Assembly: GCF_031458235.1 (NCBI RefSeq)
Contig: NZ_JAVDYB010000001.1
Coordinates: 5,132,001 to 5,196,000 of the forward strand
DNA from: Catenuloplanes atrovinosus
GTDB lineage: Bacteria; Actinomycetota; Actinomycetes; Mycobacteriales; Micromonosporaceae
Length of the DNA stretch: 64,000 nucleotides
Direction of reading: 5' to 3'
Both the position numbers and the translations under genes were made by a program. Positions 8,046 to 20,298 of the stretch are shown here, piece after piece (the first letter of the stretch is position 1; each line of letters starts with the position of its first letter). The notes under the pieces were generated by a model that saw only the letters and a program-made list of their open reading frames with translations, was not told the origin of the DNA and searched no databases.

Positions 8046-8891
8046 ATGAGAAGCTCCGTATCCGACGCGTTCCTGATCTTCACCGAGCCCATCGAGGGAC
8101 GCGTGCCGTACCTCTATCTGGACAGCTGGGGCCTGGTCACGGTCGGCACCGGATGCCGGCTGGACTCCGTGGACGAGGCGATGACACTGCCGTTCGTGCT
8201 CGCGGACCAGCCGACGATCGGGGCGTCCACGCGCCAGATCCGTGAGGCGTACACGGCCGTGCAGTCCCGGCCGGACCTGGCCGGGCGGCCCCTCGACTTC
8301 GCCGGGCGCACCGCCGTGCGGCTGACCGAGGACGGCGTCGACGAGCTGGCCGCGCGCCGGCTCGCCGCGCTGGAGGACCGGCTGATCCGCACGCCCGAGT
8401 TCGCCGGGTTCCCGCGCTGGCCGGCCGACGCGCAGTTGGCGCTGCTCAGCCTGGCCTGGGCGCACGGCCCGGACTTCTCCGGCTGGCCGGACCTGCGCGC
8501 GGACTGCGCGGCCGGTGACTGGCGGGCCGCGGCCGACCACGGGCGCATCCAGGGCGCCACCCAGCGGAACGCGGCCGACCGGGCGCTGTTCCGCACGGCC
8601 GCGCATGCGACGGAGAACCACTGGGACCCGGACGTGCTCTGGTACCGGCCGCTCGGCCACCGCGCGGAGCTGCACCCGCGGGACAGCGGCGCGGAGGTGG
8701 TGCTGTTGCAGGAGCGGCTCCTGGTGCTGGGCTACCTGGCCACGGTCAGCGGCGTGCTGGACGTGGAGACGGAGCTGGCGCTGCGCGAGTTCCAGCGCGC
8801 GCACGTGCTGCTGGTCGACGGCGTCGCCGGGCCAGCCACCTGGGCCGCGCTCGGCACGGCCGTACCCGCGACGGTGGCCGCTCACACCTAA
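8046..8891 (+). CDS. T4-lysozyme-like (GH24-type) protein with C-terminal peptidoglycan-binding domain, no signal peptide
   Basis: A 281-residue protein. Residues 14-37 carry Glu17, Asp26 and Thr32 in IEG...YLDSWGLVTVGTG, with the 9- and 6-residue spacings of the T4 lysozyme triad Glu11-Asp20-Thr26, so a muramidase fold is likely. Residues 210-270 form a PG_binding_1 module (AEVVLLQERLLVLGYL ... ALREFQRAHVLLVDG). There is no signal peptide or membrane span, which is unusual for an actinobacterial wall hydrolase: it could be an effector, a spore-wall protein or released by lysis. No ribosome site precedes the ATG; the TACGCT hexamer at 8033-8038 would allow a leaderless transcript. Between residues 40 and 200 the sequence is only loosely lysozyme-like. 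Confidence 0.72.
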   Translation: MRSSVSDAFLIFTEPIEGRVPYLYLDSWGLVTVGTGCRLDSVDEAMTLPFVLADQPTIGASTRQIREAYTAVQSRPDLAGRPLDFAGRTAVRLTEDGVDELAARRLAALEDRLIRTPEFAGFPRWPADAQLALLSLAWAHGPDFSGWPDLRADCAAGDWRAAADHGRIQGATQRNAADRALFRTAAHATENHWDPDVLWYRPLGHRAELHPRDSGAEVVLLQERLLVLGYLATVSGVLDVETELALREFQRAHVLLVDGVAGPATWAALGTAVPATVAAHT

Positions 8892-15306: not shown

Positions 15307-16827
15307 GTGTGGGTGGTGGACGACGGCGTGCTCGGGTCGGAGCGGGCCGCTGCGATCGTCCAGGAGGTCCTCGACGGGATTCCGGCCGGCTGGTCGTGGC
15401 TGGTGCCGATGGAGGGGGCGGACGGCGCGGTCGCCGACTTCCGCATCGCCGCGGCCGGGGACCGGGTGCCGGACATCTACCATCGCGGCGCGAGCCGGCG
15501 GGACAGCACGATCGCCACGCTCTACCCGACCATGGTCGGCGGGCCGCTGTGGCAGCTGTACCTGCGGGTGCTGGAGACCGGCGAGCCGGGTGAGCTGCCC
15601 GACTTCGGCTACGCCGAGTCGCGGTCCGGCGTGGTCGCGCACTCCGTCTTCGGCGTCAGCGTGCGGCGCGTGCTGGGCGGCCTGCTGGTGGTGTGGCACC
15701 GCGAGGACGAGCAGTTGCGCCGGCTGGCGCACACCGAGCTGATCGGCAACCTCGGCTGGTCCGAGTACGACCTGCACACCGGCCGCACCTCCTGGTCACC
15801 GGGCATGTACCGGATCTTCGCGCGCGACCCGGCCGACGGCCCGCTGCCACGCCTCGAGATGGCCGCGCTCATGCTGCCGGAGGACCGCGGCCTGGCCGAG
15901 ACCGCGTGGCAGACGCTGGACAGCGGCGCCACGTCCGATGTGACCGTGCGGTTCCGGGTCGGCGACGACGTCAAGCACCTGCGAATCCTGTCGGACACCG
16001 CGCCGGACGGGGACGGCCGGCCGGTCAAGATCTACGCGGTGGTGCAGGACGTCACCGTGCGGGTGGACACGCGCACGGAGATCGAGCGGCTCAGCGACCA
16101 GCTGCGCAGCCGCGAGATGACCGCGATCGCCGAGCACCGCCTCGCCGGCCAACTGCAGAACATGATCCAGCCGGTGCCGCGCGAGCCGTTCGCGCTGGCC
16201 GGGCTGGAGGTGATGGTCGGCTACCTGCCGGCCGAGCGCGCGGTCCTGGTCGGCGGCGACTGGTACCACGCGCAGACGCTGCCGGACGGGCTGGTCGCGC
16301 TCGCGGTCGGCGACGTCGCCGGGCACGGGCTGGACGCGGCCAGCGGCATGGCCCACCTGCGGTTCGCGCTGGTCGCCTGGCTCTCCATCGGGCTTCGCGA
16401 TCCCGGCGTGCTGCTCTCCCACCTGAATCGGCTCTGCCTCCAGCTCGGCATTACCGGCACCGCGATCATCGCGCTGTACGACCCGGCCGGCCGTACGCTG
16501 CGGTGGGCCCGCGCCGGTCATCCGATGCCGCTGCTGTCCCGCGACGGCGGCGCCGACGAGTTCGACCGCCCGTGCGGGCTGCTGCTCGGCGCCGCGGAGA
16601 GCGCGGAGTACCCGGTGCTGACGCCGGTGCTGCGCCCGGACGACGTGGTGCTGTTCTACACCGACGGGCTGGTGGAGCGCCGGGCCGGCGACCCGGCCGC
16701 GCAGGTCCTCCGGGTCCGCGACGCGCTCGCCGCGGCCGGCCCGGACCTGCGCCGGGTGCACGCGGCGCTGAACGAGCCGAGCACGTTCGACGACACCTGC
16801 ACGCTGGCGGTCCGCGTCCTGCCGTGA
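15307..16827 (+). CDS. PAS-SpoIIE (PP2C-type) serine phosphatase
   Basis: A 506-residue cytoplasmic phosphatase: N-terminal PAS/GAF-like region (1-130), PAS domain (about 140-262, LIGNLGWSEYDLHTGRTSW), a short coiled segment (IERLSDQLRSREMTAIAEHR) and a SpoIIE domain (about 270-505) with VLVGGDWYH, VGDVAGHGLDAASGMAHLRF, LFYTDGLVERR and FDDTCTLAVRV. Such enzymes dephosphorylate STAS antagonists and release a sigma factor. The usual GGDWYD motif reads GGDWYH. It faces the RsbW-like and STAS genes, likely partners. Start GTG 15307 is uncertain: GTG 15313 and 15316 are close, no ribosome site exists, and TAAACT at 15301-15306 suggests a leaderless message. Confidence 0.88.
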   Translation: MWVVDDGVLGSERAAAIVQEVLDGIPAGWSWLVPMEGADGAVADFRIAAAGDRVPDIYHRGASRRDSTIATLYPTMVGGPLWQLYLRVLETGEPGELPDFGYAESRSGVVAHSVFGVSVRRVLGGLLVVWHREDEQLRRLAHTELIGNLGWSEYDLHTGRTSWSPGMYRIFARDPADGPLPRLEMAALMLPEDRGLAETAWQTLDSGATSDVTVRFRVGDDVKHLRILSDTAPDGDGRPVKIYAVVQDVTVRVDTRTEIERLSDQLRSREMTAIAEHRLAGQLQNMIQPVPREPFALAGLEVMVGYLPAERAVLVGGDWYHAQTLPDGLVALAVGDVAGHGLDAASGMAHLRFALVAWLSIGLRDPGVLLSHLNRLCLQLGITGTAIIALYDPAGRTLRWARAGHPMPLLSRDGGADEFDRPCGLLLGAAESAEYPVLTPVLRPDDVVLFYTDGLVERRAGDPAAQVLRVRDALAAAGPDLRRVHAALNEPSTFDDTCTLAVRVLP

Positions 16828-16843
16828 TCCGGCCGCCGGCAGG

Positions 16844-17212
16844 TCACAGGTCGAGGTGGATGCGCACCCGCGTGCTGCCGGCGACCACGGACGTCTCCAC
16901 CTCGTCACAGATGCGCTCCACGATCGCGAGGCCGCGACCACGCAGCGCGTCCGCCGCCGGCATCGGGCGGCCGAGGACCGGCACGGCCGTGCCGTCGCGC
17001 ACCTGGTTGACGACGTCGCAGGTCAGCCGGCCGCGCGCGGCATGCAGCGTGACCTCGCCGCCGGAGCCGGTGTGCTGGAGCGTGTTGGTGGCCAGCTCGC
17101 TCACCGCGAGAACCAGCAGCTCCGCGCGCTCCTCGGGAAGGCCGAGCGCGACGGCCCGGGCGGCGACGAAGGCGCGCAGCGCCGCGAGGTCGGTCGCGAC
17201 CGCGTAGCGCAT
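16844..17212 (-). CDS. RsbW-like anti-sigma factor / serine kinase (HATPase_c)
   Basis: A 122-residue GHKL ATPase with the N box (VLAVSELATNTLQHTGSG) and G box (LRGRGLAIVERICDEV) typical of actinobacterial RsbW-type regulators, which bind a sigma factor and phosphorylate a STAS antagonist. ATG 17212 has GAGGA eight bases upstream and lies ten bases after the STAS stop codon; a longer GTG start at 17239 would overlap the STAS gene. It forms a partner-switch operon with the STAS gene and converges on the SpoIIE phosphatase gene 16 bases away. No sigma-B-type gene is adjacent. Confidence 0.88.
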   Translation of the reverse strand: MRYAVATDLAALRAFVAARAVALGLPEERAELLVLAVSELATNTLQHTGSGGEVTLHAARGRLTCDVVNQVRDGTAVPVLGRPMPAADALRGRGLAIVERICDEVETSVVAGSTRVRIHLDL

Positions 17213-17222
17213 GCGCCCGTCC

Positions 17223-17543
17223 TCAGCCAACGGTGTCACCCGGCTCGGCGAGCAGCGGGCCGACCCCGGTCAGGTCGAGCACGGTGGCGACCGGCCCGGT
17301 CGCGTTGGTGACGTGCAGCCGGCCGCCGGCGGCGAGCGCGGCGTGATGCGCGGTGACCAGGCTGTGCACGCCGGTGGAGTCGATGAACGTGACGTGCAGC
17401 AGGTCGACCACCACGGTGCGTGCCGCGGCGACAGCGGCCAGCAACGTAGCGGTCAATTCCTCCCGAACCGCCAGATCACACTCACCGTCGAGCGTCACCA
17501 CCGTCCGGGTGGGACCGCCGGACGTCCGCGCGCCGAACGCCAT
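17223..17543 (-). CDS. STAS-domain anti-sigma factor antagonist
   Basis: A 106-residue RsbV/SpoIIAA-like protein. The phosphorylation loop TFIDSTGVHSL places the regulatory Ser at residue 56. GGGGAGG lies a few bases before the ATG. In the partner-switch scheme the unphosphorylated form binds the RsbW-like kinase encoded next, and the SpoIIE phosphatase encoded at 15307-16827 would reactivate it. This three-gene link is inferred from adjacency. Confidence 0.9.
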   Translation of the reverse strand: MAFGARTSGGPTRTVVTLDGECDLAVREELTATLLAAVAAARTVVVDLLHVTFIDSTGVHSLVTAHHAALAAGGRLHVTNATGPVATVLDLTGVGPLLAEPGDTVG

Positions 17544-17713
17544 GTACGCCTCCCCTGTATCCGCCGCCCATCATGGCACCGCGATCGGCCCCGCGCGCCG
17601 GGACCCCGCGCCCCCGATCGGGTTGTCCCGCGGACGATTCACCGGCCCACTGTTCCTGGTGGCCATGATTCGGTACGGTCTGGGCTGCTTAAGGATCTGC
17701 TAAGGAGTGCGTG

Positions 17714-19342
17714 GTGACGAAGCGGTTCGCCCTGGTGGCGGCGGCGCGGAATGGCGACCGGCCGGCGCTGGCGGAGCTCGTCGCCGAGCAGCTGCCGCTC
17801 GTCTACAACGTGATCGGCCGGGCGGTCGGCGCCCATGCGGACATCGACGACGCGGTCCGGCAGACCATGCACCGCGTCGCCCGGGAGCTGCCGGACCTGC
17901 GCGATCCGGGCGCGTTCCGGGCGTGGCTGCTGGCGCACGCGCTGCGCCAGGCCACCCGGGTGCGCCGCGGCGGCACGCGCGCGCCGCTGCCGGAGGACGG
18001 CGACGCGCCGGACCCGGGCGCCGACTTCGTGGGGCTGAGCATCATCCGGCTCGGACTCTCCGGCCAGCGCCGGCGGCTGGCCGAGGCGACACGCTGGCTG
18101 GACGGCGAGCACGCGGTCCCGCTGTCGCTGTGGTGGCTGGAGGCGACCGGCGCGATCAGCCGGTCCGAGTCCGCGGCCGCGCTGCGCCTGTCGCTGGCGG
18201 ACGCCGGCGCGCGCGTCGACCGCATGCGCGCGCAGCTCGACGTGGTGCGGACCCTGGTCAGCGCGCTGCGGGCGCGCCCGGTCTGCCCGGGTCTGCGGCT
18301 GGTCGCCACGGGCTGGGACCACCGGCCCGGTCCGGTCTGGCGCAAGCGGATCTTCCGGCATGTGGAGAACTGCCCGGTCTGTTCCGGCACCGCGGCCCAC
18401 CACATCCCGGCGGAGCGGCTGATCAGCGGGCTCGCGCTGGTCCCGGTGCCGAACACGCTGCTCGCCGCGCTGCACGCGGACGGGCTGCTGCCCGAGCCGG
18501 CCGGCGCGACCGTGGCGGTGTCCCGCGGCACGGTCTACGAGCCGCTCGAACTGCTCGCCGGCCCGGCGGAGCTCACCCCGGAACCCCTGCCGCCGGTACG
18601 GCGCCCGTCCGCGGTCCTGGTCCTCGCCGCCGTGGCGACGATGGTGGTGCTGGTGGCGGGCGGCGCACTGGCGCTGACCCGCGCGCCGGAGAACGTGGCG
18701 CCGGTGCCGGTCGCGGCGGACCTGCCCCGGCGCACGCTGCCCGCGTCCACAGCGGACTCCGAGGCGTCGCCGTCCGCGTCGCCCTCGCTCAGCCCGTCCG
18801 CGTCGCCGTCGCCGTCGGCCAGCCCGTCCGCGACGCCGTCGTCCGCGCCCGGCGTGGCCGAGGTCGCGGCGCCGCCGGCCGCGCCGGCGGAGTCCTCGCC
18901 GCCGCCGGCCGCGCCGCCGGCACCCGCGCCCCCGCGGCCGTCACCCACGCCGGCCGAGAACCAGGTGACGCTGCGCGCGGTCAACTACCCCGACCGGTAC
19001 GTACGGGAGCGCGGCGGTTACGCGGTGCTGGAACCGGGGGCGGCCACGCTGACCGCGGTCCCCGGGCTGGCCGACGCGTCGTGCCTGTCGCTGCGCCTGC
19101 CGGACGGGCGCTACCTGCGCCACTACGACTACCGGCTGCGCGCGTCCCGGCCGGACGGCAGCGCGCTGTTCCGTGCCGACGCCACGTTCTGCCCGCGGGA
19201 CGGCGCGACCGACGGATCGATCATGTTGCGCTCCTACAACTACCCCAACCACGTGGTGCGCCACCGGAACTTCGCGCTCTACATCGACCGCCCGGACGGC
19301 TCCCGCGGCTTCTACCGCGACGCCTCGTTCGTGCTCGGCTGA
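17714..19342 (+). CDS. Sigma factor fused to zinc-finger-like motif, membrane span and extracellular AbfB domain
   Basis: A 542-residue composite protein. Residues about 5-85 resemble sigma-70 region 2 (LVYNVIGRAVGAHADIDDAV, AFRAWLLAHALRQATRV); about 130-180 resemble region 4 (PLSLWWLEATGAISRSESAA ... RVDRMRAQL). Then KRIFRHVENCPVCSG has His216, Cys220 and Cys223 in the H-x3-C-x2-C spacing of zinc anti-sigma domains. A membrane span (about 300-321), a Ser/Pro linker (350-415) and a C-terminal AbfB (CBM42-like) beta-trefoil (about 417-542; SYNYPNHVVRHRNFALYID) follow. This order suggests a membrane sensor that binds arabinofuranosyl or related sugars outside and holds a sigma module inside. 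GTG 17714 is six bases after TAAGGAG. Region 4 is degenerate, so true sigma activity is uncertain. Confidence 0.75.
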   Translation: MTKRFALVAAARNGDRPALAELVAEQLPLVYNVIGRAVGAHADIDDAVRQTMHRVARELPDLRDPGAFRAWLLAHALRQATRVRRGGTRAPLPEDGDAPDPGADFVGLSIIRLGLSGQRRRLAEATRWLDGEHAVPLSLWWLEATGAISRSESAAALRLSLADAGARVDRMRAQLDVVRTLVSALRARPVCPGLRLVATGWDHRPGPVWRKRIFRHVENCPVCSGTAAHHIPAERLISGLALVPVPNTLLAALHADGLLPEPAGATVAVSRGTVYEPLELLAGPAELTPEPLPPVRRPSAVLVLAAVATMVVLVAGGALALTRAPENVAPVPVAADLPRRTLPASTADSEASPSASPSLSPSASPSPSASPSATPSSAPGVAEVAAPPAAPAESSPPPAAPPAPAPPRPSPTPAENQVTLRAVNYPDRYVRERGGYAVLEPGAATLTAVPGLADASCLSLRLPDGRYLRHYDYRLRASRPDGSALFRADATFCPRDGATDGSIMLRSYNYPNHVVRHRNFALYIDRPDGSRGFYRDASFVLG

Positions 19343-20137: not shown

Positions 20138-20161
20138 AGCCTCGCCGGGAACCACCCGCGC

Positions 20162-20298
20162 AACCGGCAGGAAGACCGCCCGCGCAGGAAGACCACCCGC
20201 GCAACCGGCAGGAAGACCGCCCGCGGAACCGGCAGGAAGACCGCCCGCGGAACCGGCAGGAAGACCGACCGCGGAACCGGCAGGAAGGCCGCCCGCGG
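20162..20298. repeat. 24-bp minisatellite array
   Basis: Units starting AACCGGCAGGAAG and ending CCGCGG or CCGCGC occur at 20162-20185, 20203-20226, 20227-20250, 20251-20274 and 20275-20298, with a 17-bp partial unit at 20186-20202. The last four are strictly tandem and differ at one or two positions. Period 24 is a multiple of three, so long false frames result, but no gene with a start signal covers it. The region 20138-20488 upstream of the Hsp90 gene is otherwise non-coding. Confidence 0.9.

Follow-up and report, generated by a model that had tools for sequence, protein, structure and literature searches.

A fused sigma/zinc anti-sigma receptor with an extracellular AbfB domain and a diverged sigma head in Catenuloplanes

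Background

Sigma factors of the groups ECF48, ECF52 and ECF53 have been described as fusions (PMC5826349, PMC8999054), so that the premise of an earlier sequence-only reading of the present locus, by which sigma, anti-sigma and sensor are separate proteins in known ECF systems, was mistaken. SCO4117 of Streptomyces coelicolor (ECF52) consists of a sigma part, a zinc finger, a membrane span, a Pro-rich stretch and a carbohydrate-binding domain; it has been studied genetically, regulates genes in vivo, and has been suggested to be positively autoregulated (PMC5826349). Earlier work has proposed that ECF52 proteins are released by proteolysis (PMC5826349, PMC8999054), and a review that treats all three groups as fusions gives IutY as the one experimentally characterised case of proteolysis (PMC8999054). 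Some ECF52 and ECF53 proteins are reported, without experiments, to have glycosidase or carbohydrate-binding domains (PMC10766802; also PMC8999054). RsgI5 carries a CBM42 domain on a membrane anti-sigma factor, and the proteolysis of RsgI through the membrane has been studied (PMC12203970, PMC4711584). No study of a fused sigma/anti-sigma receptor with an AbfB sensor was found in a literature search for which subscription papers were largely out of reach.

The window analysed here, a stretch of 64,000 nucleotides from Catenuloplanes atrovinosus, encodes a protein that shares with SCO4117 the order of zinc finger, transmembrane span, Pro-rich stretch and carbohydrate-binding domain. It differs in its sensor, which is AbfB, whereas that of a SCO4117-like protein (L259, taken as such by its NPCBM, zf-HC2 and sigma domains and not by accession) is NPCBM. 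Membership of ECF52 in the sense of SCO4117 was rejected by sequence: BLASTP of the window protein against L259 gave no significant match (E 1.7, in the Pro-rich part), and a profile of the 121-row family alignment scored L259 at 66 bits, against 299-387 bits for the four paralogues of the host genome. Four of five ordinary ECF sigma factors of the host scored 32-53 bits with the same profile, and the fifth was unmatched.

The SigI/RsgI5 system of Clostridium thermocellum is similar in that RsgI5 displays an extracellular CBM42/AbfB domain on a membrane anti-sigma factor, and its structure 9fnk is the second-best match of the AbfB domain in the window; there, however, the sigma factor is a separate protein. 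RsgI is not known to be a zinc anti-sigma (ZAS) protein. ECF53 comprises fused zinc-finger/transmembrane ECFs (PMC8999054), the protein family described here includes members with Glyco_hydro_cc domains, and the window protein would likely be a member of ECF53. IutY of Pseudomonas putida (ECF243) likewise combines a sigma factor and a membrane anti-sigma in one protein, from which Prc and RseP release the sigma factor (PMC8999054), but it belongs to a siderophore-linked, Gram-negative cell-surface signalling system.

Results and discussion

Gene and domain organisation

A single open frame runs from the GTG to the stop codon at 19340-19342, and AAGGAG lies six bases ahead of the GTG (Table 1). 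One membrane protein joins a sigma-like head, a zinc-binding inhibitor and a sugar-binding domain on the outside, and the one-polypeptide layout of sigma, ZAS, membrane and AbfB parts that the sequence-only reading had put forward was confirmed by the open frame, by Pfam matches to Sigma70_r2 and AbfB, by the ZAS motif and by the single span. His216, Cys220 and Cys223 are at the positions given in that reading, which had overlooked Cys191, the fourth likely zinc ligand. In the profile searches that it had proposed, Sigma70_r2 and AbfB scored over their cutoffs, and neither zf-HC2 nor sigma region 4 was matched in the Pfam scan of the window protein. The presence of region 4 is suggested instead by the alignment with paralogues, by helices of the structural model and by Foldseek matches that span both sigma domains.

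The hydropathy profile has one hydrophobic peak only, preceded by Arg-Arg, which would place the N-terminus on the cytoplasmic side. The linker that follows contains 27 Pro, 23 Ala and 18 Ser in 96 residues, and the relatives of the AbfB domain in the PDB are 3akf, 9fnk (RsgI5) and 1wd3.

Table 1 Features of the receptor locus, in window coordinates
Feature	Position	Strand	Basis or remark
Complete fused receptor gene, 542 aa + stop	17714..19342	+	GTG start, AAGGAG 17702-17707
Sigma region 2-like domain, aa 22-86	17777..17971	+	Pfam Sigma70_r2 29.5 bits, cutoff 24
Arg49 codon at usual place of region 2.2 core-binding Gln	17858..17860	+	Alignment
Sigma region 4-like helical domain, aa 119-187	18068..18274	+	Paralogue alignment, model helices, Foldseek
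Altered sigma-4 recognition helix, aa 161-172, net charge +1	18194..18229	+	Family row comparison
Zinc anti-sigma-like (ZAS) domain, C191-x24-H216-x3-C220-x2-C223	18284..18427	+	Invariant columns, 121 rows
Single transmembrane span, about aa 298-321	18605..18676	+	Hydropathy maximum 2.62 over 19 residues
Pro/Ala/Ser-rich extracellular linker, aa 323-418	18680..18967	+	Residue composition
AbfB (CBM42-type) domain, aa 420-540	18971..19333	+	Pfam 129 bits, cutoff 22.8, 1.5e-37
Promoter-like element TTCC-N12-TTCGGTACGGTCTGGG	17653..17684	+	Common to window gene and sister gene B
STAS gene	17226-17543	-	Upstream neighbour
HATPase_c_2 gene	16847-17239	-	Upstream neighbour
SpoIIE phosphatase gene	15307-16827	+	Upstream neighbour, as is a trypsin-like gene

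Conservation and distribution of the sigma-ZAS module

The host genome (8.9 Mb, a single contig) encodes three further paralogues of the sigma-ZAS module: A (L015), with a Glyco_hydro_cc sensor; B (L016), with AbfB and a very long low-complexity stretch ahead of the span; and C (L017), with an AbfB sensor. In B (L016:8451-11438) and its orthologues, the several hundred Gly/Ala/Ser-rich residues between the ZAS domain and the span are apparently cytoplasmic. Each of the other four genomes of the genus that were examined has four sigma-ZAS genes (a fifth match in G001 is the second piece of one gene), and the orthologues of the window gene in them are 71-81% identical over the whole protein.

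The pattern C/H-x(n)-H-x3-C-x2-C of ZAS domains is found downstream of the sigma module in the window protein. Among 121 non-redundant N-termini, the only columns invariant in all 121 aligned relatives were C192, H217, C221 and C224; this numbering starts at the GTG at 17711 and is one above that from 17714, so that C192 is Cys191 and the recognition helix 162-173 is 161-172 of Table 1. H-x3-C-x2-C was present in 135 of the 135 rows of the tree, and zf-HC2 was matched by Pfam in only 3 of 78 family members scanned. A lack of H-x3-C-x2-C among orthologues, which the sequence-only reading had named as evidence against itself, was not encountered (the motif is kept in 121/121), and its idea of an anti-sigma domain acting in cis was right. 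Chance is excluded because the orthologues are 71-81% identical over their full length and the zinc columns are invariant in 121/121.

Three scans gave the distribution of the module, each as a lower bound in which only the best first-look candidates per genome were scored (44, 9 and 10, respectively): at least 25 of 61 genomes (60 relatives and the host's own) at E<=1e-20; at least 23 of 296 genomes of the phylum; and at least 142 of 250 genomes of the host's family, matching the A5 profile at E<=1e-70. The scan of named genomes kept the best 80 of 381 confirmed stretches. Nine of the phylum matches exceeded 270 bits (the host's own genome and eight genomes of one other family), and the others scored 77-110 bits. 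After removal of six near-identical duplicates there were 138 matches, of which 135 with full N-termini entered the tree; L039 (cut at a contig end), L013 (a distant sigma factor without the motif) and L162 (late model start, motif present) were left out. This survey of the domain order in other genomes, which had been proposed with the original reading, found the same domains in five genomes of the genus and the module in other genomes of the family. That the gene is an artefact, a chance fusion or a misassembly of neighbouring genes, is scarcely credible: the same domains occur in orthologues from five genomes of the genus, the neighbours are kept, and the module is present in at least 142 of 250 family genomes at E<=1e-70. 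This reading is refuted because of that conservation. The fusion of sigma, ZAS, membrane and AbfB parts in the window protein is real, and receptors of this kind are known from actinobacteria; what is new is the divergence of the sigma head in one genus.

A Pfam survey of 78 proteins chosen from the 135 found Sigma70_r2 in 76, AbfB in 25, Glyco_hydro_cc in 15, CAP in 13, beta-helix in 6, and GH99 and Lcl_C in one each. The outside domain is thus exchanged between members that all retain the sigma, ZAS and span parts. The outside domain of one member (L095:7980-9575) is CAP (cysteine-rich secretory protein) and not sugar-binding, and another, from Actinoplanes palleronii (L022:431-2287), has two Lcl_C stretches on the outside.

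Predicted fold and mode of action

An AlphaFold2 model of residues 1-265, built on the 121-row alignment, had a mean pLDDT of 89.2 and a pTM of 0.83. Compared with the PDB by Foldseek, it gave a single match under E 0.001, CnrH bound to CnrY (E 2.7e-4, TMt 0.72), followed by SigW bound to RsiW (TMt 0.75, rmsd 6.0-6.8 A over about 175 columns). The rmsd was 5.2-5.4 A for RpoE bound to NepR, and 21.7 and 26.8 A for the sigma chains of RNA polymerase complexes such as 9m9e and 6jbq, respectively. The order of the matches points to a closed arrangement in the model, similar to that of SigW/RsiW, and the chains matched suggest that the ZAS domain docks on the sigma domains; against this, the model agrees poorly with other sigma factors bound to their anti-sigmas (SigE/RseA 12-13 A, AlgU/MucA 13 A, the SigK complex 10.6 A). 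Weak matches to PhyR were also obtained. PhyR is a sigma-mimic anti-anti-sigma whose sigma-like fold is not known to act as a sigma factor; it is a cytoplasmic response regulator with no known ZAS domain or membrane span, and its comparison with the window protein would be only an analogy.

In the explanation that we prefer, the protein would be a receptor made of one polypeptide and anchored in the membrane, like other fused sigma/ZAS proteins of actinobacteria. Its cytoplasmic N-terminal module, derived from a sigma factor, would be held closed by the following ZAS domain, in line with the best matches of the model, which are sigma factors bound to anti-sigmas. The span and the Pro/Ser/Ala stalk would carry AbfB outside the cell, where arabinofuranosyl-type glycans are its presumed ligands; that a relative of this domain is the sensor of RsgI5 is consistent with such a role. 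Binding on the outside would be relayed, probably by stepwise proteolysis, and would free the N-terminal module. In the Catenuloplanes subclade described below, the module appears to keep fold and clamp while both surfaces with which a sigma factor works have changed, and its output would more likely be the binding of a protein partner, or else that of a strongly altered sigma factor.

Divergence of the sigma head

In the 135-row tree, a clade with support of 100 unites the window protein and its four orthologues with five B-type proteins, and this subclade of ten proteins from five genomes is confined to Catenuloplanes. A profile of the ten members scored them (by construction) at 457-473 bits and the next best of the 250 genomes of the host's family at 294 bits, a gap that leaves no intermediates elsewhere in these genomes.

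Arg49 occupies the position that we take to correspond to Q406 of sigma70, a core-binding residue of region 2.2. In sigma32, the mutant Q80R binds core polymerase weakly. The residue is Arg in all ten subclade proteins and in none of the 125 rows outside the subclade; it is Gln in 114 of 116 nearer rows (the exceptions, L117 and L158, have Val and His, respectively), and His (5), Gln (3) or Ala (1) in nine distant rows of the protein family. Across the 65 sigma-2 domains of the host genome it is Gln in 55, Ser in six, Ala in one and His in one, with Arg only in the window protein and B. As far as can be judged from the alignment, Arg at this position argues against binding of core RNA polymerase. 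The sequence-only reading had allowed that it would fall if region 2 lacked all core-binding residues, which is not the case in the window type, where the Asp equivalent to D403 is kept; nonetheless the Q406-equivalent is Arg in 10/10. In B the D403-equivalent is His, the sole non-acidic residue among the 65 host domains. By sigma-2 score, the window protein ranks 62nd and B 65th of the 65, Sigma70_r2 passes the Pfam cutoff in eight of the ten subclade proteins, and region 2.3/2.4 of the window protein is strongly basic (+5).

The second working surface has also changed. The net charge of the recognition helix is +1 or less in all ten subclade proteins (+1 in the window protein), compared with a mean of +3.2 (range +2 to +4) in 114 nearer rows and +2 to +4 in the nine distant rows; L117 and L158, excluded from the 114, have 0 and -2, respectively. 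Pfam matched region 4 in only 6 of 78 family members. The ECF superfamily model TIGR02937 (curated cutoff 42.9 bits) scored the window protein at 20.8 bits, its four orthologues at 24.5-29.1 bits, and four of the five B-type proteins at 17.8-23.1 bits or, for one, with no match. Nine of the ten members were scanned singly in this way (L135, the fifth B-type protein, was left out), and all nine were below the cutoff, whereas paralogues A (71.6 bits) and C (63.7 bits) both pass and 110 of 121 family members match at 1e-8.

Because both working surfaces have diverged in the subclade, the module may no longer act as an ordinary, promoter-specifying sigma factor, a proposition to which we give very nearly even chances; it is doubtful whether the sigma head of the window protein functions like an ordinary one. 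The retained D403-equivalent of the window type, the basic region 2.3/2.4 and the passing Sigma70_r2 scores of eight members count against this loss. So does the fact that Gln is not universal at the Q406 position: by eye, the translation of the SCO4117-like ECF52 protein L259 has Ala there, while SCO4117 regulates genes in vivo (PMC5826349). The stronger statement, that all sigma function is surely lost, was rejected with regard to the distant rows (five His, three Gln, one Ala) and to the six host domains with Ser. A link between degeneracy and the AbfB sensor was likewise rejected, since five C-type paralogues keep Gln and the one C-type protein scanned passes TIGR02937.

The principal alternative is that the module still works as a sigma factor, with changed core contacts and a changed promoter specificity, and is freed by sugar binding and proteolysis to serve a small regulon. 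This is the mode proposed for ECF52 (PMC5826349, PMC8999054), and it accords with the retained sigma-2 fold, D403-equivalent (window type) and basic region 2.3/2.4. Three features weigh against it: Arg at the Q406 position in 10/10, the less basic recognition helix in 10/10, and TIGR02937 scores below the cutoff in 9/9 scanned. We regard it as a serious possibility that falls clearly short of even chances.

Two further groups of proteins were noted. L117:1471-2973 and L158:3651-4829, both of genome G048 from another family of the order, one of them with AbfB, score low with TIGR02937; both rows are long-branched in the tree, and they are possibly a separate, second case of sigma degeneration. 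Streptomyces proteins L255-L258 carry the motif H-V-D-D-C-x2-C; in L255, the one scanned, region 4 was matched weakly, a BACON-like match stayed under the cutoff, and Pfam gave no sigma-2 match. These may be another degenerate relative.

Selection on the diverged receptors

No internal stops were found in the ten subclade copies, AbfB was found by Pfam in 10/10 of the proteins, and the zinc ligands are all kept. For the five window-type orthologues, dN/dS (NG86) was 0.31 in sigma 2, 0.57 in sigma 4, 0.26 in ZAS, 0.44 in AbfB, and 0.66 in the stretch of juxtamembrane region, span and linker. The corresponding values were 0.09, 0.24, 0.20 and 0.27 (sensor) for paralogue A, and 0.21, 0.27, 0.50 and 0.49 for paralogue B, while paralogue C was loose across all domains (0.37-0.51); NG86 ignores the strong codon bias of these genomes, and only comparisons between genes are meaningful. 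Judged by these ratios, constraint on the window type is weaker than that on paralogue A, yet present, and purifying selection appears to remain.

These values bear on a third reading, in which the protein has become an AbfB anchor at the cell surface, or a binder of wall glycans, and its sigma part is a slowly decaying vestige. The high ratios in sigma 4 (0.57) and in the juxtamembrane/span/linker stretch (0.66) would fit such decay, and the former also counts against the preferred explanation. Slow decay is improbable, however, given the lower ratios of sigma 2 and ZAS, the zinc ligands kept throughout, and internal stops in 0/10 copies; the remaining constraint favours the preferred explanation.

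Promoter-like element and gene neighbourhood

The promoter-like element of the window gene recurs at the sister gene B (L016, about 8384-8415), and TTCC-N12-TTCGGTACGGTNNGGG lies shortly 5' of the start codon in 5/5 window-type and 5/5 B-type genes. To judge from its sequence, the element resembles a -35/-10 pair with a spacer of 17 bases. In the 8.9 Mb genome, TTCGGTACGGTNNGGG has two exact places, at the window gene and at B, and seven one-mismatch places (one with the reversed control); TTCC-N16-18-TACGGTNNGG occurs at the same two places, with zero for the reversed control. Two of the seven one-mismatch places (L265, L267) are just 5' of gene-like ORFs, and five are within long open frames. 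A wide regulon of the element was rejected with these counts.

If the module is a working sigma factor, the shared element would perhaps bring the receptor gene itself and its sister gene into the regulon. The presence of the element 5' of both subclade genes, without another exact copy in the genome, and the positive autoregulation suggested for SCO4117 (PMC5826349) favour this view, but the -10-like TACGGT could equally serve another sigma factor.

The SpoIIE, HATPase_c_2 and STAS genes (window 15307-17543) are a partner-switching set adjoining the receptor. On the downstream side, a LinB-like_C nucleotidyltransferase-type gene and a HATPase/HSP90-like gene are separated by a tandem repeat (20151-20298, period 24, 6.5 copies). 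G001, G003 and G004 have the same gene order; G002 differs by an inversion, relative to the flanking genes, of the block that contains the nucleotidyltransferase-type gene, receptor, STAS and HATPase. No arabinan-use gene was found among the seven neighbours of the receptor that were scanned.

Conclusions

Fused sigma/anti-sigma receptors couple an outside signal to transcription within one protein. The paralogue set of a single Catenuloplanes genome, in which the sigma signatures of A and C are intact and those of the window gene and B are degraded, addresses which sigma contacts are dispensable while the receptor stays, and whether sigma factors can become non-sigma signalling domains; the promoter-like element shared by the latter two genes offers an immediate reporter. 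Tentatively, and with rather more doubt than confidence, we suggest that these two receptors may be pseudo-sigma factors that have kept the zinc clamp and the sensor and given up the RNA polymerase and -35 contacts, that they would be co-expressed from a private promoter element, and that the freed module would be a decoy or a partner-binding signal, with L117/L158 perhaps a separate case. If true, a transmembrane one-component receptor would have arrived at a solution similar to that of PhyR.
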